DNA of 64,000 bases, from the NCBI GenBank assembly GCA_027065695.1, contig JAMONP010000018.1, positions 62,001 through 126,000 on the forward strand. The letters run 5' to 3'. A program made the translations under genes and the position numbers. The first letter of the stretch is position 1, and every line of letters starts with the position of its first letter. The notes beneath the pieces are model-generated. The model had not been told where the DNA came from, did no database searches, and was given only the letters and a program-made list of their open reading frames with translations. Below, one piece after another: positions 5,857 through 16,295 of this stretch. This DNA is from Desulfuromonadales bacterium. Its GTDB lineage: Bacteria; Desulfobacterota; Desulfuromonadia; Desulfuromonadales; BM103.

Positions 5857-8800
5857 ATGTTTCGACAGTGGAGTCGCTTCAGCTTACTAATCTTTTCAGC
5901 TCTGATAATTTTCTCTCAGGTATGGGCAGCAGAGCCAGGAGTACATTTTTTCGATTGTAAAGAATGTCACCTCTCAGGTCGGACAATCAATCAACTGGGT
6001 GGCGACAACGTCTGTCTGAAATGCCACCACTTGACCTCTGGAGATACCACACTCAACGATGGGGCACCAGTCATACTTGATGGTCACACCAACGCTCGCT
6101 TTGTTTCGGGGGATGCAAGCAACGCCTTTGGTCATGGTTCAGGAGAGCCAGGCGCCGAGCAAACGTCCCACACCTGGTCTGCGCCATCAGATACCCTGGC
6201 CGCAGCAGGAGCTCAAGCGCCAACGCAAACCGAACATCCAGAGTTCTATTCCCGTTACGGCACCTCTACGGGCAGAATAACCTGTTCACGCTGCCACAAC
6301 CCTCATGGAGCCGCAACAAGCAATCCCAAACTGCTTGTTAAGGGCAACAATTCGTCCGACGTCATGTGCCGAGCTTGCCACCAGTCCTGGGTCATCAATG
6401 ATCATGGTTGGCTGACTCACCCCATCATTGACAACTACAGTGCCTCCGTAGCAGCAAATCCAGGAAAGTACTTTGCAAATTTGAATAACAAAGACAATGC
6501 CAGCATTAATCTGGTCAATGGTGGAGTCTCCTGCACCTCTTGTCATGGCGTTCATTTTGTTGACTCAGATGCAGCAACGGCTGACGGAGCGGGTCAAAGC
6601 CTCAGCGTTTCAGATGGCAAATTGCTTCGCAGTGACGGACCTGGCCAGCCGGACAAATCCTCCCTCTGTCAGACCTGCCATACATATGGAGAGCACGGCG
6701 ACAATATCGGCGAAAAGGTTGGCTGCCTGATCTGTCACAGCGGTCATTCTTACGATCCTGACTTCCCCAATTATTATGTCCTCAGAAAGTCGGCAGAAAC
6801 GACTACCTACAATGCGGTTACAGCACTTGACTACTCCTCGCCGTCAGTGCTTGATGAAAGCCTGAAATATACTTTCTGGAACGATCAGACCGATGGCACA
6901 GCCAACGGCTACTGTGAAAAATGCCATGGCGACGCTGTTACAATCGGAACTGGTGCTGGTGATTATCATACTGCTGCTGCGATCTGTACCGATTGCCATA
7001 GTCACAATGGTACGAACGGGAGTAGTTTCTCTGCCGATTGCAATGCTTGCCATACCTACCCACCTGTCTGGCAAAGCCATGGGATTCATCTTGACCGAGG
7101 ACGTCTCAGCAATACACCCTCCTGTGATACTTGCCACAAAACATCCGTCCATTTAAATGAACTCTCTGAAATTCGTTTTGACCCTGACGATCTACGTGTT
7201 GACTCCGGCACCTACTCAGGAACGGAGTCAAGTCGTTATACCCTTGCAAACGGTTACAATGCGGCGGTTCCCGCTTATGGCCAATGTGACAACGTCTACT
7301 GTCACAGTAATGTCCAGGGTCAGACAGACCCGACTCAAGCCCCCGACTACCAGACGCCCTCATGGGGCGGGGCAGTTGTAGGGGCCTGCAAAGCCTGCCA
7401 TAACGGCGGTGTTCATTCTGGCTTCACACCAGCAATGGCAACAGGCAGCCATACTGCCCATCTCGCCTACGTTTTCGGCAATACTGACACCATTATGAGT
7501 TGCCAAGCCTGCCACTACCTCGGGGAATCAGCAACCTGCGAACCCTGCCATATGAATAATGTCGATTATGGCGATTCGACCTATAACCGTATGGACAAGC
7601 ACGTCGATGGCAGCATCAATGTTGATTTCAACCCGACAGCTGCAGGGACTTCTGCAGCATATTCAGGTGACACCATCCCGCAAACAGCCTATGGCTCGTG
7701 CAGCGCAACTTATTGTCACAGCCTTGGAGAATTAAGCGTGACAACAGGACAACTCCCTGCGGCATATGGTGGCAATATGTTCCGTGTTCCCGAATGGGGC
7801 GGGAGTTCAATGGGTTGTAACGGCTGTCACGGCCTGAGCACAGCAAACGGCATGCCGGATTACATATCAGGTCCGGCAGGTACTGAAGATGCCAACAGTC
7901 ATGTACCGCACGCCGGGGACAGCCAAATTGGGTGCCAACTCTGCCATTTCGGCACAACCGAAGACGGTACAACCATCAGCTACGATGGTCTTTACATGAA
8001 ACACGCGAATGGTGTGAATACCGATGTTGAGTTTGAAGCCGTACTCAACCCCGCGGCAACATACAATGCGGCCATTGGTTTGAAGGATTGTAGCAGCAGT
8101 TACTGTCACGGCAATTATCAAGGCAGCGGCAAAAATGCCACCCCGCAGTGGGGTGATGCTGCCTCAGGTCAATGCGGATCATGCCATGGAGCCTCAAGCA
8201 GTGACATCCCGAATAGCGGTTCTCACGAGGGACATGTCTCGCCAACGGGTTTCGTGCTTGCCTGTACAACCTGCCACAGCGGAATTATCTCCGGAACCGA
8301 TCCTTATACGATTACTGACTTCGGAAAACACGTCAACGGATCAGTTGACTGGACCTTTGATGCAACGGACGTCAGACTGCAAACGGGAACACCACTTTAC
8401 AACATCGCAACCGGTACGGTGCCCCCGTCTGATGGCATTGATCCCCGCGCTTACGGCACCTGCTCCAACGTCTACTGCCACAGCACCGCTCAAGGGATAG
8501 CCAACCCGACCGCGCCTCCAACGTACACCACACCCGCATGGGGCGATACAGCCTCAGGCCAGTGCGGAACTTGCCACGACCTGGGTTCTCATGTTGGTGG
8601 CAGTGGAGTCGTCATCAGTTCAGGGAGTCACCCTAATCACTTACTGACTGAATACAGCTTCAGCGGCAGTGTTTCTAATTGCCAGGTTTGTCATTACGAC
8701 CCCGAAATCAGCAGTTATGGCTGCAACTTCTGTCACCTGGGAGGATATCCTTCCCCAACATCTCGTTTGGCAGCCAAACACGTCAATGGCTACATTGATG

Positions 8801-10365
8801 TCGATTTTCGTACACAAGTCGCAGGCACAAATGCCTCATACTCAGGAGATAACAGCCCAGGGAACGCCTACGGTGATTGTCTGAATATCTACTGCCACAC
8901 CGATGGCACCTCTCGTTCGACCGGTACTTACTCAAGCAGCGCAGCGATCTCCTGGGGAGGAGCCATCCTCGGATGTGACGGCTGTCACGGCAATCCTCCT
9001 GCTTATACAACAGCGTCACTCAAGGCTAACAGCCACGTAGAACACGCAGCTTACTCGTGTGAAGTCTGCCACCATTACACAACAGATGATGGCACAACCA
9101 TAACCGATCCAGCGACTCACATAGACCAGGAGTACAGCTTATCTCCTGTTTCTGGTAAATATTTTGATTATGCTTTCCTCCCCTCCGGTGGAACCTGTTC
9201 CTCGGTTGCCTGCCACGGCAACACCAATGCGACCTGGGGCGACTCAGCATCATACAACTGCGTTGACCTCGACGCCGATGGCATTTGTGCAGACGATAAC
9301 TGTCCCACCATGGTCAATCCAAGCCAAGTAGACACGGATGGCGATGGCATTGGTGATATCTGCGATGCCTGGGCCACTATTGATACGGGCGGCAACACTC
9401 AACGCGCTCTGAAAGCAGATGGCTCATGGTGGGCCTGGGGCTGGAACAATGTCGCCCAGTTTGGGGACGGAACCTACATCTCCAACGACTTTCCTAATCA
9501 GACCGTTCCCGGCAACGACTGGACAATCCTTGTCGGAGGAGATCAACACACTATTGCCCGGAAAGACAACGGCACACTCTGGGCGTCAGGCAGCAATAGC
9601 TACGGGCAGTTAGGTATTGGCCCAAGTGGCATTGCCAAAACCCCTATCCAAATGGGGACAGACACAGACTGGTTGATTGTTGACTCCGGTAGTGAGAGAA
9701 ACCACGCGATCAAAACCAATGGTTCTCTCTGGTCATGGGGACGCAATGACAACGGCGAACTGGGAGATGGAACAACGACTCAAAAATACACACCGGTGCA
9801 GGTCGGAACCGACACTGACTGGCAATCTGTTTCGGCAGGGGGCTATCACACTGTTGCAATCAAAACAAACGGGTCTATGTGGGCCTGGGGACAGAACGTT
9901 TACGGTAAACTGGGTGACGGGACAACCACGCAAAGGAACGCCCCGGTGCAGACTGGAACCGACTCCGATTGGCAGGTTGTCGCCGCAGGGGACCATCACA
10001 CCATTGCTATCAAAATCAACGGCACACTCTGGGCTTGGGGCAACAACTCATATGGACAACTGGGCAACGGAACGACCACATCAAGCGGCGTTCCGACACA
10101 GATCGGCTCACAAACCAATTGGGACTCTATTTATACTGGCGGCAATCACAACATTGCCATCAAAACCGACGGCACACTCTGGGCTTGGGGCAACAACTCA
10201 TATGGGCAACTTGGAGACGGTACAGCAACAAGAAGACTCGCTCCCGTGCAGATTGGCACGGACACAGACTGGAAAACTGCTGCGGGCAATGATTACGATA
10301 GTTTTGTCATAAAAACAAATGGGGAGCTCTGGCAATTAGATACTATTCCTGTGCAGATTGATTGA
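5857..10365 (+). CDS. Exported multiheme cytochrome c with TSP3 segment and C-terminal RCC1-like propeller
   Basis: A 1502-residue secreted protein, probably an extracellular or outer-surface electron carrier. Residues 1-24 form a signal peptide ending in AWA-type VWA. Residues 34-1120 contain 23 CXXCH motifs (first CKECH at 34) and six CX4CH motifs (CDNVYCH, CSATYCH, CSSSYCH, CSNVYCH, CLNIYCH, CSSVACH). From about residue 425, six modules of roughly 130 residues repeat: a KHVNG-like start, the CX4CH, a PxWG spacer, then CX2CH. This matches the Geobacter CxxxxCH/CxxCH domain family. Residues 1135-1171 are a thrombospondin type 3 calcium-binding segment (DTDGDGIGDICD). Residues 1172-1502 carry seven RCC1-type repeats (LWAWGNNSYGQLGDGT). 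AAGGGGGA lies 8 bases before the ATG. The fusion order is unusual; substrate and partner are unknown. It is monocistronic as far as visible. Confidence 0.95.
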   Translation: MFRQWSRFSLLIFSALIIFSQVWAAEPGVHFFDCKECHLSGRTINQLGGDNVCLKCHHLTSGDTTLNDGAPVILDGHTNARFVSGDASNAFGHGSGEPGAEQTSHTWSAPSDTLAAAGAQAPTQTEHPEFYSRYGTSTGRITCSRCHNPHGAATSNPKLLVKGNNSSDVMCRACHQSWVINDHGWLTHPIIDNYSASVAANPGKYFANLNNKDNASINLVNGGVSCTSCHGVHFVDSDAATADGAGQSLSVSDGKLLRSDGPGQPDKSSLCQTCHTYGEHGDNIGEKVGCLICHSGHSYDPDFPNYYVLRKSAETTTYNAVTALDYSSPSVLDESLKYTFWNDQTDGTANGYCEKCHGDAVTIGTGAGDYHTAAAICTDCHSHNGTNGSSFSADCNACHTYPPVWQSHGIHLDRGRLSNTPSCDTCHKTSVHLNELSEIRFDPDDLRVDSGTYSGTESSRYTLANGYNAAVPAYGQCDNVYCHSNVQGQTDPTQAPDYQTPSWGGAVVGACKACHNGGVHSGFTPAMATGSHTAHLAYVFGNTDTIMSCQACHYLGESATCEPCHMNNVDYGDSTYNRMDKHVDGSINVDFNPTAAGTSAAYSGDTIPQTAYGSCSATYCHSLGELSVTTGQLPAAYGGNMFRVPEWGGSSMGCNGCHGLSTANGMPDYISGPAGTEDANSHVPHAGDSQIGCQLCHFGTTEDGTTISYDGLYMKHANGVNTDVEFEAVLNPAATYNAAIGLKDCSSSYCHGNYQGSGKNATPQWGDAASGQCGSCHGASSSDIPNSGSHEGHVSPTGFVLACTTCHSGIISGTDPYTITDFGKHVNGSVDWTFDATDVRLQTGTPLYNIATGTVPPSDGIDPRAYGTCSNVYCHSTAQGIANPTAPPTYTTPAWGDTASGQCGTCHDLGSHVGGSGVVISSGSHPNHLLTEYSFSGSVSNCQVCHYDPEISSYGCNFCHLGGYPSPTSRLAAKHVNGYIDVDFRTQVAGTNASYSGDNSPGNAYGDCLNIYCHTDGTSRSTGTYSSSAAISWGGAILGCDGCHGNPPAYTTASLKANSHVEHAAYSCEVCHHYTTDDGTTITDPATHIDQEYSLSPVSGKYFDYAFLPSGGTCSSVACHGNTNATWGDSASYNCVDLDADGICADDNCPTMVNPSQVDTDGDGIGDICDAWATIDTGGNTQRALKADGSWWAWGWNNVAQFGDGTYISNDFPNQTVPGNDWTILVGGDQHTIARKDNGTLWASGSNSYGQLGIGPSGIAKTPIQMGTDTDWLIVDSGSERNHAIKTNGSLWSWGRNDNGELGDGTTTQKYTPVQVGTDTDWQSVSAGGYHTVAIKTNGSMWAWGQNVYGKLGDGTTTQRNAPVQTGTDSDWQVVAAGDHHTIAIKINGTLWAWGNNSYGQLGNGTTTSSGVPTQIGSQTNWDSIYTGGNHNIAIKTDGTLWAWGNNSYGQLGDGTATRRLAPVQIGTDTDWKTAAGNDYDSFVIKTNGELWQLDTIPVQID
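10021..10210 (+). repeat. Near-identical 40-base segments in two adjacent RCC1 blades
   Basis: The segments at 10021-10060 and 10171-10210, exactly 150 bases apart, differ at one base (GGCACACTCTGGGCTTGG... onward). The other blades are much more diverged, pointing to recent duplication or conversion between blades five and six. Confidence 0.8.
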
Positions 10366-10593: not shown

Positions 10594-11982
10594 ATGAAAT
10601 ACCAAAGCACCAGAGGTCAGGTCAAAAATATCCCCTTTAAACAAGCTGTAATGATGGGTCTGGCTGAGGATGGCGGCCTGTTGTTACCGGAAACCATCCC
10701 TCACCTTACCCCCGGCGATCTCGACGCACTGGCCAAACTGGCCTATCCGGAGCTCGCCTTCCAGGTCATGAGCTATTTTATCGAAGACATTCCGTCCGCT
10801 GACCTGAAGACTATGATCGACCGGGCCTATTCCAGCTTCAAACATCCGGATATCACCCCGGTGGTTCATCAGGATGGCCTATACATCCTGGAACTCTTCC
10901 ATGGCCCCACCCTCGCCTTCAAGGATGTTGCTTTGCAGTTCCTGGGCAACCTCTTCGAATACCTGCTGGCGGAATCGGGTGAGCACATGAATATTCTCGG
11001 TGCCACCTCAGGGGACACCGGCAGTGCAGCCATTTACGGCGTGCGCGGCAAAAAGAACATCAATATTTTCATCCTGCATCCGCACAAGAAGGTCTCACCG
11101 GTGCAGGAGCTGCAGATGACAACGGTCACCGACGCCAACGTTTTTAACCTTGCCATTGAAGGCACCTTCGACGACGGTCAACAGATTGTCAAAGAGACTT
11201 TCGGCGACCTTGAATTCAAAAAGCAATACGCTCTCGGTGCCGTCAATTCGATTAACTGGGCACGCATCCTTGCCCAGGTTGTCTATTACTTTTATGCCTG
11301 GGGTCAAGTGCGCAAACAGACCGGAGCCAAGAAGGTCTATTTCTCGGTACCGACCGGTAACTTTGGAGATATTTTTGCCGGTTATATCGCTAAAAGAATG
11401 GGCCTGCCAATAGAGAAACTGGTGCTTGCCACCAACGCCAATAACATTCTTGCGCGTTTTGTTAACGCCGGTGACTATTCGAGCAGTGAAGTTCACCCCA
11501 CCTTCTCGCCTTCAATGGATATTCAGAATGCAAGCAATCTGGAGCGTTATCTCTATTACCTGTTCAATGAGGATTCCAAGCAGCTGACTTCTGCCATGCA
11601 GCAGTTTGCCAAAACCGGCAAGCTTTCATTTACAGCTAAACAAATAGCTGAAATCCATGAGACTTTCCTGTCGACTTCCGTAGATAATGATCAGACACTG
11701 GCAACTATTCGTGATTTCCATAATGCCACCGGCTATGTCCTTGATCCACACACGGCCACCGGCATCAAGGTCGGCAAAGATCTCTCCGCTGGCGATTATC
11801 CGGTTATATGCCTGGCGACGGCCCATCCAGCTAAATTCCCCGATGCTGTTAACCAGGCAATCGGTAGAGACCCGCAGCGCCCAGCCTGCCTTGACGGCCT
11901 GGAAGATCGCGAACGCCGTTGCGAGATTATTCATGCCTCAACCGACACCGTCAAAAGATACCTGGCAAAACATGCTCTGTAG
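10594..11982 (+). CDS. thrC: Threonine synthase
   Basis: PLP enzyme that converts O-phosphohomoserine to threonine. It has 462 residues, typical of the longer ThrC class. The N-terminal YQSTRG motif, the PLP Lys110 in HGPTLAFKDVALQ, the phosphate-binding GATSGDTGSAA and the VPTGNFGDIFAGY segment are all visible. The start ATG follows GAAGGAAG with 7 bases spacing. It stands alone between the cytochrome and a strong terminator; homoserine kinase and dehydrogenase genes are not in the window. The 228-base upstream gap holds a dispersed repeat and no recognised riboswitch. Confidence 0.97.
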   Translation: MKYQSTRGQVKNIPFKQAVMMGLAEDGGLLLPETIPHLTPGDLDALAKLAYPELAFQVMSYFIEDIPSADLKTMIDRAYSSFKHPDITPVVHQDGLYILELFHGPTLAFKDVALQFLGNLFEYLLAESGEHMNILGATSGDTGSAAIYGVRGKKNINIFILHPHKKVSPVQELQMTTVTDANVFNLAIEGTFDDGQQIVKETFGDLEFKKQYALGAVNSINWARILAQVVYYFYAWGQVRKQTGAKKVYFSVPTGNFGDIFAGYIAKRMGLPIEKLVLATNANNILARFVNAGDYSSSEVHPTFSPSMDIQNASNLERYLYYLFNEDSKQLTSAMQQFAKTGKLSFTAKQIAEIHETFLSTSVDNDQTLATIRDFHNATGYVLDPHTATGIKVGKDLSAGDYPVICLATAHPAKFPDAVNQAIGRDPQRPACLDGLEDRERRCEIIHASTDTVKRYLAKHAL

Positions 11983-12030
11983 GGCGAAGCAAGAGCCTTC
12001 AATCTCAATTAGAGCTAAGAGAAGCATAAA

Positions 12031-12067
12031 AAAGCCCCCGGCCAACAAACCGGGGGCTTTCTCGTTT
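12031..12067 (+). terminator. Rho-independent terminator of thrC
   Basis: AAAGCCCCCGG (12031-12041) pairs with CCGGGGGCTTT (12050-12060) around an 8-base loop, followed by CTCGTTT. The A run on the left side could make it work on the other strand too, but glnA ends 167 bases away. Confidence 0.9.
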
Positions 12068-12100
12068 AACCTTTGTAACTATCCATCATTATCAAAGATT

Positions 12101-12175
12101 GTCATTCCCGAGGGTGTAATCGGGAATCCAGATTTTAGAACCGTGGATCCCCGATAGAATCATTCGAGGATGACA
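12101..12175. repeat. Palindromic dispersed repeat of the GTCATTCCCG...GGATGAC type
   Basis: The left half begins GTCATTCCCGAGG and continues to GGGAATCCAG. The right half, TGGATCCCCG to GGATGAC, is its imperfect reverse complement. Elements with exactly these ends are common intergenic repeats in many proteobacteria. It lies between the convergent thrC and glnA genes. Confidence 0.7.
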
Positions 12176-12226
12176 GAAGTTTTTGTAAAACATAGATTTA
12201 GCTGAACAGTTACTAACCTTTTTGTC

Positions 12227-13636
12227 TTAACAATCAAAATAAAGAGCAAACTCTTCAGGACATGGGCGCATGCGCACTGCATCAACTTCAGCTTCGCGCT
12301 TGTAGGAAACCCACATTTCAATAACGTCTTTGGTGAAGACATCGCCCTTGAGCAGAAAGTCGTGATCATCCTCCAGACAATCGAGGGCTTCGCTGAGAGA
12401 ACCGGCGACACTCGGAATATCTTTTAACTCTTCAGGGGAGAGACCGTAGATATCCTTGTCAAGCGGATCGCCCGGGTCAATCTTGTTCTCAATGCCGTCG
12501 AGACCAGCCATCATCAGTGCAGCAAACGCCAGGTAGCCGTTGCAGCTCGGATCGGGTGTACGGTACTCGACACGTTTCGATTTAGGATTGTCAGTCACCG
12601 GGATACGCAGGGATGCGGAGCGATTACGGTTGGAGTAAGCTAGGTTAACCGGAGCTTCGTAACCAGCCACCAGGCGTTTGTAAGAGTTGGTACTCGGGTT
12701 GGTGAAGGCGCAGAGAGCTTTGGCGTGCTTCATGATGCCGCCAATGTAGTACATAGCCATTTTGGAGAGACCACCGTAGCCGTCACCGGCAAACAGGTTC
12801 TCACCATCTTTCCAGAGTGATTGATGGCAGTGCATACCGGAACCGTTATCACCAAAGATTGGCTTTGGCATAAAGGTGACGGTCTTGCCGTTCTGAATGG
12901 CGACGTTCTTGACGATATATTTGAACCACTGCAGGGTATCACCCATGCTGAGCAGCGAATCAAAGCGCATGTCAATCTCGGCCTGGCCGCCAGTGGCGAC
13001 TTCGTGGTGCACGGCCTCAATGGTCATGCCAACACTCTGTAGTACTTCAACCATTTCGTTACGCAGGTCAACCATAGAATCAGTCGGCGCGCAAGGAAAG
13101 TAGCCTTCCTTGTGGCTCGGTTTGTAAGCGAGGTTGGGGAACTCTTCACGACCGGTATTCCAGGTCCCTTCGACCGAATCAACCGAGTAGAAAGACTCAT
13201 TGGCACTAGAAGCATAACGAACATCGTCAAAGATGAAGAATTCCGGCTCGGGACCGAAGTAGGCTGTATCAGCAATACCGGTTGACTTCAGGTACGCTTC
13301 CGCTTTCTGGGCGATATAGCGCGGGTCGCGGGTGTAGCCTTCCTTGGTGATCGGATCAATGATGTTACAAATCAGGCTGAGGGTAGAAACCTTGACAAAA
13401 GGATCTATCTTGGCTGTACCAGGATCTGGCATGATCAACATATCCGAGTTATGAATCGGCTGCCAGCCACGGATCGAAGAACCATCGAAACCGATGCCCT
13501 CTTCAAATATGTCTTCGCTGAATTCACCGATAGGTGTGGAAAAATGCTGCCAGATACCGACAAAATCGAGGAACTTGTAATCGACCATCTTGCAATTGTT
13601 ATCCTGGGCAAACTTGACTACTTTTTGTGGGGTCAT
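12227..13636 (-). CDS. glnA: Glutamine synthetase, type I
   Basis: ATP-dependent synthesis of glutamine from glutamate and ammonia; a dodecameric cytosolic enzyme. It has 469 residues from the ATG at 13636. An in-frame GTG three codons upstream (13645) sits only 3 bases after AGGAG, and GlnA relatives start with MTPQxVV, so the ATG is favoured. Motifs include [10 protein letters not shown], the glutamate-binding [10 protein letters not shown], the ATP-site [12 protein letters not shown], and the loop NRSASLRIP. Tyr400 (Tyr397 from the preferred start) in [11 protein letters not shown] matches the adenylylation site of GSI-beta enzymes. It lies 71 bases downstream of glnB and probably shares its sigma-54 promoter. 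Confidence 0.96.
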
Positions 13637-13707
13637 CGTTTTCACTTTCTCCTTTAGGAAATGTCTTTGCTGTTATCGTCAGTTAAATAGAACGACCTGC
13701 TATCTAA

Positions 13708-14067
<360 letters not shown>

Positions 14068-14134
14068 TTAATGTCAGATGTCATATTTAACAGGGTAGTG
14101 CCAAGACACAACTATTGCGCAAATTTCATGTAAA

Positions 14135-14151
14135 TGCAAATTGCTTGCCTA
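14135..14151 (-). promoter_or_regulatory. Candidate sigma-54 promoter for glnB-glnA
   Basis: Read on the minus strand the sequence is TAGGCAAGCAATTTGCA. The GG and GC pairs are spaced exactly as in TGGCAC-N5-TTGCW, and the -12 element is perfect; the -24 element has two mismatches. It would give a leader of about 80 bases before glnB. Confidence 0.55.
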
Positions 14152-14309
14152 AATAAAAACTCACCGACAAACAAATATAACACACGGATTTTAAAAGCTT
14201 TACAGCCAAAAAACCAAAGAGATTGATATGAATAAAAGTACGGCGTTTAAAAGTTATGCAAACAAATCAAGCAACTGTAGCTATAATTGCCTATATTGTG
14301 AGCAGGCAT

Positions 14310-14840
14310 CTACCCTCTATCGAAAAATGGATTCTTGCCCTTGGCCGCAAGTGGAATGCCGTAAGCTATCTTGATATCGTCGCCCAGCATACCGAGTTCA
14401 ACGGCCGCTTTTCCGGCAGTATACATAATCCGATTGTCGACACGAAAATCTGCGGCCATGGCAACCGCAGAACCAAGAGCTATGCCAAGATCACCACTAT
14501 TAAATGAACATGTTCCACCAGCATCAAGCATAGCATCACAATCGATGAAACCACAGTAACCACAAGCAGGGAGTCGCAAAGGCAGCTTACGGGTACCAAT
14601 CAGGACGACAACCGGAGCATGCTCCAGGTTACCGGCGTCACGCTGAAAAAACGCAACTTCGTCACGCTGACCGATCTCCTCCATCTTCTTCCGGAGTTGC
14701 TGCTTGTCATCATCAGTAATAATCGCCGTAACCAGGAGATCTTGCCCCTTGCCTTTCGGAGCCGTACGTGCGGCAACACAGATATGTTCTGCGGCACGGA
14801 TAAGACCGGATATTTCAGCCTTTTCATTCAATACAAGCAT
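14310..14840 (-). CDS. DUF2148 ferredoxin-domain protein
   Basis: A 176-residue cytoplasmic protein of the uncharacterised DUF2148 family. The ATG at 14840 has AGGAGG 6 bases upstream; an open extension to 14888 has no such site. The N-terminus (AEHICVAARTAPKGKG) and the Cys cluster CGYCGFIDCDAM are typical of the family and suggest metal or Fe-S binding, with a further Cys in GGTCSFNSGDLG. The C-terminal half has AADFRVDNRIMYTAGKAA, also family-typical. It is a single gene divergent from the SH3b gene and faces the glnB promoter. No reaction is known for the family. Confidence 0.85.
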   Translation of the reverse strand: MLVLNEKAEISGLIRAAEHICVAARTAPKGKGQDLLVTAIITDDDKQQLRKKMEEIGQRDEVAFFQRDAGNLEHAPVVVLIGTRKLPLRLPACGYCGFIDCDAMLDAGGTCSFNSGDLGIALGSAVAMAADFRVDNRIMYTAGKAAVELGMLGDDIKIAYGIPLAAKGKNPFFDRG

Positions 14841-15017
14841 CTCAAACCTCCTGTTTGTCGATGAGATAAAATAGACGATTATGCTCATTAACTCAAGGAT
14901 TGATTGATACCTGTGCGGTCATAATAAATTGATTTTTTAATTGAAATTATTATGTTATCGGTTATTTTAGCATGGATATTTATAAAAGATATTCAATCAA
15001 AAAACAAGGAGAGGGCT

Positions 15018-15482
15018 ATGAAGAGACATTCCATCTTGAGACTTTCAATCATATTGGCATACTTTGTGACATTGTCAGTCGGCTATGCGGCAATCAGTTA
15101 TGCAGAAAACATGTCCGTTGGTTTTTCAGGCACAGAGATGCGTTCCGCACCAAATGCGATGGCTTCCGAAGTTATTGCCAAGCTAAATCCCTACGACCCG
15201 TTGACAATCATCGAGAAAGGTTCTGACTATTATAGGGTCAAGGATTATCGCGGCCGCAGCGGATGGGTACATCGGGCCCTGCTGAGCAACTCCCCAAGTG
15301 TCGTGGTCACCGGTAACAACGCCAATGTTCGCCAGGGGCCAGGCACCAATCATGCTGTGGTCTTCCAACTCTCAAAAGGGATGGCTGTAAAACTTTTAGA
15401 AAAACAGGGGAAATGGGTTAAGGTGCAGACCGCTGATGGCAAACAAGGCTGGATTGCTGCATTTCTGGTTTGGGGAGAATAG
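15018..15482 (+). CDS. Exported bacterial SH3 (SH3b) domain protein
   Basis: A 154-residue exported protein. The ATG at 15018 has AAGGAGAG directly upstream and begins a signal peptide (residues 1-30, cleavage likely after SYA). Two SH3b domains follow, about residues 34-85 (MRSAPNAMASEVIAKL ... SGWVHRALL) and 93-152 (ANVRQGPGTNHAVVFQL ... QGWIAAFLVW). SH3b domains usually bind peptidoglycan or other cell-wall material; no catalytic domain is present. An inverted repeat just after the stop probably terminates transcription from both sides. Confidence 0.88.
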   Translation: MKRHSILRLSIILAYFVTLSVGYAAISYAENMSVGFSGTEMRSAPNAMASEVIAKLNPYDPLTIIEKGSDYYRVKDYRGRSGWVHRALLSNSPSVVVTGNNANVRQGPGTNHAVVFQLSKGMAVKLLEKQGKWVKVQTADGKQGWIAAFLVWGE

Positions 15483-15490
15483 TATTCTAA

Positions 15491-15528
15491 TGGGACGCGC
15501 AAGTTTTGCTTTTGACTTTCGCGTCCCG
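15491..15528. terminator. GGGACGCG...CGCGTCCC inverted repeat between convergent genes
   Basis: GGGACGCG (15492-15499) pairs with CGCGTCCC (15520-15527). The inner part GCTTTTGACTTTCGCG matches, in reverse complement, the GGGACGCGATAGTCAAAAGC at 43054-43073, so this is both a terminator-like hairpin and a member of the GGGACGC repeat family. Confidence 0.6.
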
Positions 15529-15530
15529 AG

Positions 15531-16295
15531 CTACAGTCTATCTTGAAATTTCTTATATATATCTGTAAGCCGTGAATCCAAGCGGGCAAGAGCCTCATCC
15601 GCGATTTCAACTGGCACCCCACCATAATAAGCCTCCGCTATACTCCCGGCAATACAAGCCTGGGTATCACTATCCCCCCCTAGCGAGACTGCGTTACGGA
15701 TAGCATCTTCAAAATCTGTTGATTCCAGAAATGCCAATATCGCATAGGGAACAGATCCCTGGCATGACACATCAAAGCTGTAACCAGGACGGATTTCATC
15801 TATTGACCCGGAAAGGTCATAGGCAAACGTATCCTGGATAAAATTACGGATCTGCTTTTTGTCAGCACCCTTTCGGGCAATAAACACCGCACCGGCTACA
15901 GACTGGGCACCACGAAGACCTTCCGGATGATTATGGGTCATCTCGGCACTGCGTCGCGCTGCCTCAAGAACTTCATCCTGACTATCATAATACCAGGCGA
16001 TGGGACTGACACGCATGGCAGACCCATTGCCATAACTGCCATATGGCATTGGTTGCGGTGATCGAGCCCAACGTCGGAAGCGGCCACCATAGCCAGCATG
16101 GGGATAGTAGATGAAATATTCGCGGAGCTTTTCCTGATAAGGAATTTTATGCAGAAGGCTGTCTGCCAAGGCGACAGTGTGAACTGTGTCGTCAGTGAAA
16201 ATACTTTGACGATTGAATAATTCGAAATCCTTACTCTTGATCCCGGCATGCTCAAATCGCGAACCGATGATGTCTCCTGCAATCGCACCAAGCAT
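15531..16295 (-). CDS. ADP-ribosylglycohydrolase family protein
   Basis: A 254-residue hydrolase of the ADP-ribosylglycohydrolase (ARH/DraG) fold, which removes ADP-ribose from proteins or small molecules. The N-terminal LGAIAGDIIGSRFE, the metal-binding FTDDT (about residues 33-37) and the C-terminal GGDSDTQACIAGS are intact, so the dinuclear magnesium site appears complete. It resembles the broad housekeeping-like ARH group rather than nitrogenase-specific DraG, and no draT or nif gene is near. It ends 3 bases from a hairpin shared with the SH3b gene and lies 48 bases downstream of the aminopeptidase gene. The target is unknown. Confidence 0.88.
   Translation of the reverse strand: MLGAIAGDIIGSRFEHAGIKSKDFELFNRQSIFTDDTVHTVALADSLLHKIPYQEKLREYFIYYPHAGYGGRFRRWARSPQPMPYGSYGNGSAMRVSPIAWYYDSQDEVLEAARRSAEMTHNHPEGLRGAQSVAGAVFIARKGADKKQIRNFIQDTFAYDLSGSIDEIRPGYSFDVSCQGSVPYAILAFLESTDFEDAIRNAVSLGGDSDTQACIAGSIAEAYYGGVPVEIADEALARLDSRLTDIYKKFQDRL

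Follow-up and report, generated by a model that had tools for sequence, protein, structure and literature searches.

An RCC1-like propeller as one of several exchangeable tails behind a conserved haem head in a predicted multihaem cytochrome of Desulfuromonadales

The open reading frame at 5857..10365 of the window, by which we mean the whole 64,000-nucleotide stretch of Desulfuromonadales DNA analyzed here, was found to encode a multihaem cytochrome that carries a C-terminal RCC1-like propeller in the same chain. The continuity of this chain, its haem motifs, the family of its head, the fold of the propeller, the exchange of tails in relatives and the recurrence of such fusions could all be read from the sequences and from a structure model. 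Our main interpretation, to which we give a probability of about 0.6, is that the product is a cytochrome for extracellular electron transfer, held by its propeller on a surface ligand, be it mineral, matrix or cell.

The frame lies on the forward strand, as do all features given below for this protein, and encodes 1502 amino acids plus a stop codon with zero internal stops. It begins with a Sec-type signal peptide, recognized by eye at residues 1–24 (5857..5928), which ends in ...IIFSQVWA followed by AEPG and has no lipobox; together with the relatives described below, this peptide suggests a location at the cell surface. The head module (residues 26–405; 5932..7071), delimited by an alignment of 15 heads, has 10 CXXCH motifs. 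The middle haem region (residues 406–1125; 7072..9231) has 13 CXXCH and 6 CX4CH motifs, arranged as CxxxxCH...CXXCH modules that matched PF09698 (70.7 bits versus a cut-off of 21.7) and TIGR01904, the model for GSu CxxxxCH...CXXCH cytochromes (156.7 bits versus 27). All 23 CXXCH and 6 CX4CH motifs fall within residues 34–1120, in agreement with the initial annotation, which had also recognized the signal peptide. Shuffling residues 25–1125 (1000 shuffles) gave a mean of 0.18 per motif type and a maximum of 3, so that the observed number, being far higher, is not due to chance. Furthermore, the haem region has 35 non-motif His for 29 predicted haems, possibly enough to offer every haem a distal ligand. 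It had initially been doubted that the CX4CH sites carry haem, but considering that haems are attached at such sites in Desulfovibrio cytochrome c3, and considering the TIGR01904 score, this doubt is weaker than it was stated.

Residues 1134–1171 (9256..9369) form a segment with predicted calcium binding, having a DxDxDGxxDxxD motif with paired Cys. A phmmer match of residues 1136–1171 to thrombospondin-2 (E 3.5e-7) and the D.D.DG..D..D pattern at residue 1159 bore out its earlier assignment as thrombospondin type 3 (TSP3). An NCBIfam match fell below threshold and the Pfam TSP_3 model, which scores in relatives, gave nothing at E 1 in this protein, and we therefore call the segment TSP3-like. 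The C-terminal domain at residues 1172–1502 (9370..10362) exceeded the gathering scores of the Pfam models WD40_RLD (E 1.6e-63) and RCC1 (E 6.2e-49), with 164.8 bits versus 21.7 for PF00415 and 215.7 bits versus 150 for PF25390, and consists of six blades of ~50 amino acids followed by a short closing seventh. An AlphaFold2 run without an alignment (pLDDT 45) was superseded by one using 22 homologues from viral contigs, in which the domain was predicted as a closed, seven-bladed propeller (pLDDT 86.8, pTM 0.86) with the TSP3 stretch poorly resolved. The seven RCC1-type repeats noted in the initial annotation, which had also proposed structure prediction of this tail, were thereby recovered both in the repeat pattern of the sequence and as blades of the model. 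Foldseek placed the model closest to UVR8 (E 4e-34), with TM about 0.7–0.85 for UVR8 and RCC1, the best solved-structure matches being UVR8, HERC2 RLD, RPGR and RCC1. Propellers of the RCC1 type serve elsewhere as dimerization surfaces, as in UVR8, the propellers of which dimerize, or as GTPase exchange factors. No second RCC1 protein turned up in the same genome.

The head defines a family of its own. It was present in 27 of 58 sampled relatives and, when the genomes of GTDB r220 were scanned, in 65 distinct frames, all from Desulfuromonadales, Geobacter-type bacteria or deltaproteobacterial bins, and the family thus spans Desulfuromonadales and Geobacterales. Eight non-motif His residues (30, 105, 150, 188, 233, 280, 297 and 383) were invariant in the 15 aligned heads and are likely distal haem ligands. 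One member from Desulfuromonas soudanensis, having 2802 amino acids and 58 CXXCH plus 11 CX3CH (69 sites), fits the 69-motif, predicted extracellular cytochrome DSOUD_0664 (PMC4914508), which would tie the head family to an electrode-respiring isolate. That protein, likewise from Desulfuromonadales, shares the 10-CXXCH head with the window protein but stops 10 residues past its last motif and has no propeller. Among structures in the PDB, the head profile found at best the multihaem cytochrome 9yuq (E 3.8e-8), with OmcS only at E 0.21. Membership of the OmcS, OmcE and OmcZ nanowire cytochromes was accordingly rejected, no homology to the solved nanowire proteins having been found, and so was membership of the MtrC/OmcA outer-membrane decahaem cytochromes, with PF22113 absent from the protein and no porin or cytochrome neighbour; the MtrB model reached only 18 bits in this genome. 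It was also seen that nine complete tail-less members (39 to 65 motifs; e.g. L044:10497-17468 and L297:5580-13985) and the D. soudanensis protein share a C-terminal ...CxxCH..LPK signature a few residues past the last haem. Separately, two contigs of one genome (L057 and L058, G010) each carry a similar head copy that runs into the end of its contig, suggesting duplicates at which the assembly was interrupted.

Within the head family, tails were found to be swapped directly behind the last haem. Of the 36 complete frames with the head, 18 stop no more than 30 residues past their final haem motif and 16 run on for at least 100 residues, 5 of these 16 with TSP3. The tail types, besides none at all, included PKD (L055:3908-7624), TSP3 with an SBBP propeller (L055:7668-11696 and 11960-15865), TSP3 with SBBP, lectin-like and Ig-like domains (L104:2144-9079), Laminin_G_3, Ig-like domains, a lactonase/YNCE-type propeller with TSP3 and lectin-like domains (L056:3812-14983), TSP3 with an Ig-like domain (L111), choice-of-anchor Q (L043, the closest paralogue within the same genome, with a head 67% identical), FN3 with RCC1, and TSP3 with RCC1, the last being that of the window protein. 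Its nearest full-length relatives, namely the PKD-ended frame just given and the tail-less L054:4274-8518, share its haem region, which argues that a real module boundary lies near residue 1125. With half of the complete members being tail-less, the tail is dispensable for the basic job of the head family. In one genome (G015, contig C150, ~198–238 kb, covering L055, L056, L062 and L104) about seven head-family cytochromes were observed in tandem with differing tails, comprising PKD, TSP3 with SBBP, TSP3 with SBBP and lectin-like, propeller with TSP3 and lectin-like, TSP3 with Ig-like, and GEVED.

Screening ~70 RCC1-bearing frames of the phylum for haem motifs revealed three clear multihaem-RCC1 proteins besides that of the window. 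The first, P0003, comes from a genome of the same class (family f24, to which Geobacter sp. AOG1 also belongs) and has 13 CXXCH and 6 CX4CH motifs, InlB-like repeats and RCC1. P0004 (L178:1108-12627), whose genome belongs to the same order, has 24 CXXCH, many TSP3 repeats and further domains, with its C-terminal RCC1 preceded by another TSP3; it thus shows the same order of multihaem region, TSP3 and C-terminal propeller as the window protein, but is 3839 amino acids long, has a MopE-like start and many more inserted domains, and no match was obtained between its haem region and the window protein. The search for this domain order therefore ran against the uniqueness of the combination implied in the initial annotation. 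In Geobacter sp. AOG1, an isolate from a lepidocrocite enrichment (PMC8567784), a protein of 2229 amino acids (L292:9370-16056) likewise begins with this head (HMM E 5e-70) and ends in an RCC1 propeller, yet has 19 CXXCH and an FN3 linker in place of TSP3, and its RCC1 tail, ~37% identical to that of the window protein, is not its sister in the tree. Beside that gene lies a frame of >3000 amino acids (L292:3-9272, its start masked as N) with ~20 RCC1 repeats and 3 CXXCH. When 65 RCC1 domains were placed in a tree, the four linked to haem regions stood apart, this being a quick tree with many weak branches in which the repeats align poorly, and a single origin of the four fusions was rejected with an AU p of 0.003 on that same tree, weakly supported inside. 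Because these four RCC1 tails fail to group as a single clade, we have good, although not final, sequence-based evidence that multihaem-RCC1 fusions arose more than once.

RCC1 propellers similar to the present one (up to 50% identity) were very common in viral contigs (L188-L266). In phages such as S-SRM01 and PollyC (L294, L295, L296) the RCC1 genes lie at tail-fibre loci, either adjoining the long tail fibre gene or inside a 'tail fiber' gene, and a plasmid search gave, among the best matches listed, RCC1 matches only. Such modules are widespread and mobile. In Saccharibacteria, PilX2, a proposed pilus adhesin needed for the function of its pilus, has a seven-bladed RCC1 propeller as proposed attachment tip, but unlike the window protein it is a minor pilin without haem (PMC12206443).

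The cytochrome gene is flanked by an arginase-family gene upstream and threonine synthase downstream, and no porin, pilus or cytochrome gene was seen adjacent to it; an operon explanation was rejected, the neighbours being metabolic genes. Six other genomes of the genus have threonine synthase without this cytochrome or its upstream neighbours nearby, and in the two of these that were read (L267, L271) the place held in the window by the cytochrome, ahead of threonine synthase, is taken by a frame of 755 amino acids. As the locus differs in this manner, the gene is accessory in the genus, as would agree with the rapid turnover reported for cytochromes of Geobacter (PMC12977616). Rfam gave no match in the window and near seven related loci, with no c-di-GMP riboswitch seen, and promoter and terminator scans gave signals no more than in shuffles.

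According to the interpretation that we favour, the window protein would be secreted to the outer surface as a multihaem c-type cytochrome loaded with about 29 bis-His haems, 10 in the head and 19 in the repeat region, along which electrons would flow. The TSP3 linker, stiffened by bound calcium, would keep the propeller clear of the haems, and the propeller would dock the protein on a surface ligand such as a mineral-associated polymer, the biofilm matrix or a partner cell. As one interchangeable tail among several in the family, it would set the attachment site of the wire and not its conduction. That the same wire within one family carries different surface-recognition tails points to the tail as the part by which its place of contact is chosen. 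Counting against this interpretation are the other roles of RCC1 propellers given above, the lack of a porin or partner cytochrome beside the gene, the tail-less half of the complete family members and the failure of the Pfam TSP_3 model to reach E 1 in the linker. Of the initial proposal of a haem wire linked to a binding propeller, the combination as such stands as the best-supported reading, strengthened by the exchange of tails and by the known attachment settings in which RCC1 propellers occur, whereas docking is the part that is proposed from these patterns.

Other explanations should be weighed against this. The propeller could be an assembly surface, used for dimers or filaments or for docking on the cell's own outer-membrane porin-cytochrome conduit, with no outside target. 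The closest solved structures being those of UVR8, with its dimerizing propellers, agrees with such a role, as does the lack of a conduit partner near the gene, whereby docking to the cell's own machinery would be needed; relatives that have unrelated folds at the same place (PKD, lectin-like, SBBP, Ig-like) or are tail-less are however better explained by a variable target, and we find the assembly role rather doubtful. We hold it to be still less probable that the tail is a near-neutral add-on, i.e. a mobile surface module that a rapidly changing cytochrome gene has picked up and that matters little for function. The differing gene position relative to the threonine synthase loci of the six genus members, the fast turnover of large cytochromes in Geobacter (PMC12977616) and the mobility of RCC1 modules would all fit with that idea, but the blade pattern is intact, the propeller closes in the model, and RCC1 as well as other adhesion-type tails have repeatedly been joined at the same position.

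It must finally be considered that the frame might represent two genes joined by an assembly error, as had initially been raised for the region at ~9260–9370, and exactly this gene was indeed found in one genome only. The frame is however open throughout 9260–9370, GC content is even (0.51 in the head, 0.53 in the middle region, 0.54 in TSP3 and 0.53 in RCC1), tails are swapped at the same boundary in relatives, and independent multihaem-RCC1 fusions recur in other assemblies. These results make an assembly error at the tail junction unlikely, the module boundary near residue 1125 also counting against it, and we give a merger of two genes only a very slight chance.

A surface cytochrome with an accessory domain is of a kind already known. 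The ANME archaeal MHC-A/B/C proteins are giant multihaem cytochromes fused to S-layer or pectin-lyase-like domains (PMC9012536), thus resembling the window protein in joining a multihaem chain to surface or binding domains, but they are archaeal, have other domains and are proposed to serve S-layer passage. Geoalkalibacter ferrihydriticus, a metal reducer of the same broad group, has a large cytochrome of 24 haems that includes two FN3 domains (PMC12016550), these being likewise of adhesion type but N-terminal, and no propeller. Large cytochromes of the present group are expressed in electrode or iron oxide growth, as in D. acetexigens with up to 86 motifs (PMC12133095). In our literature search we found no paper joining 'multiheme cytochrome' with 'RCC1', and no report of the RCC1 variant, of its repeated fusion or of tail exchange behind one conserved head.

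At stake is how metal-reducing bacteria achieve specific contact with a mineral, an electrode or a partner, a question for which, to our knowledge, most work has concerned the haems and not the non-haem parts. We tentatively propose that Desulfuromonadia may keep combinatorial extracellular cytochromes, in which one conserved head is followed by a haem stretch that varies and by recognition tails that can be exchanged, such as propellers, lectin-like or Ig-like domains, so that a built-in adhesin would pick the mineral, polymer or partner cell and with it the electron acceptor. With a shared haem head and a changing tail within one family, attachment and current should be separable by swapping or removing the tail.
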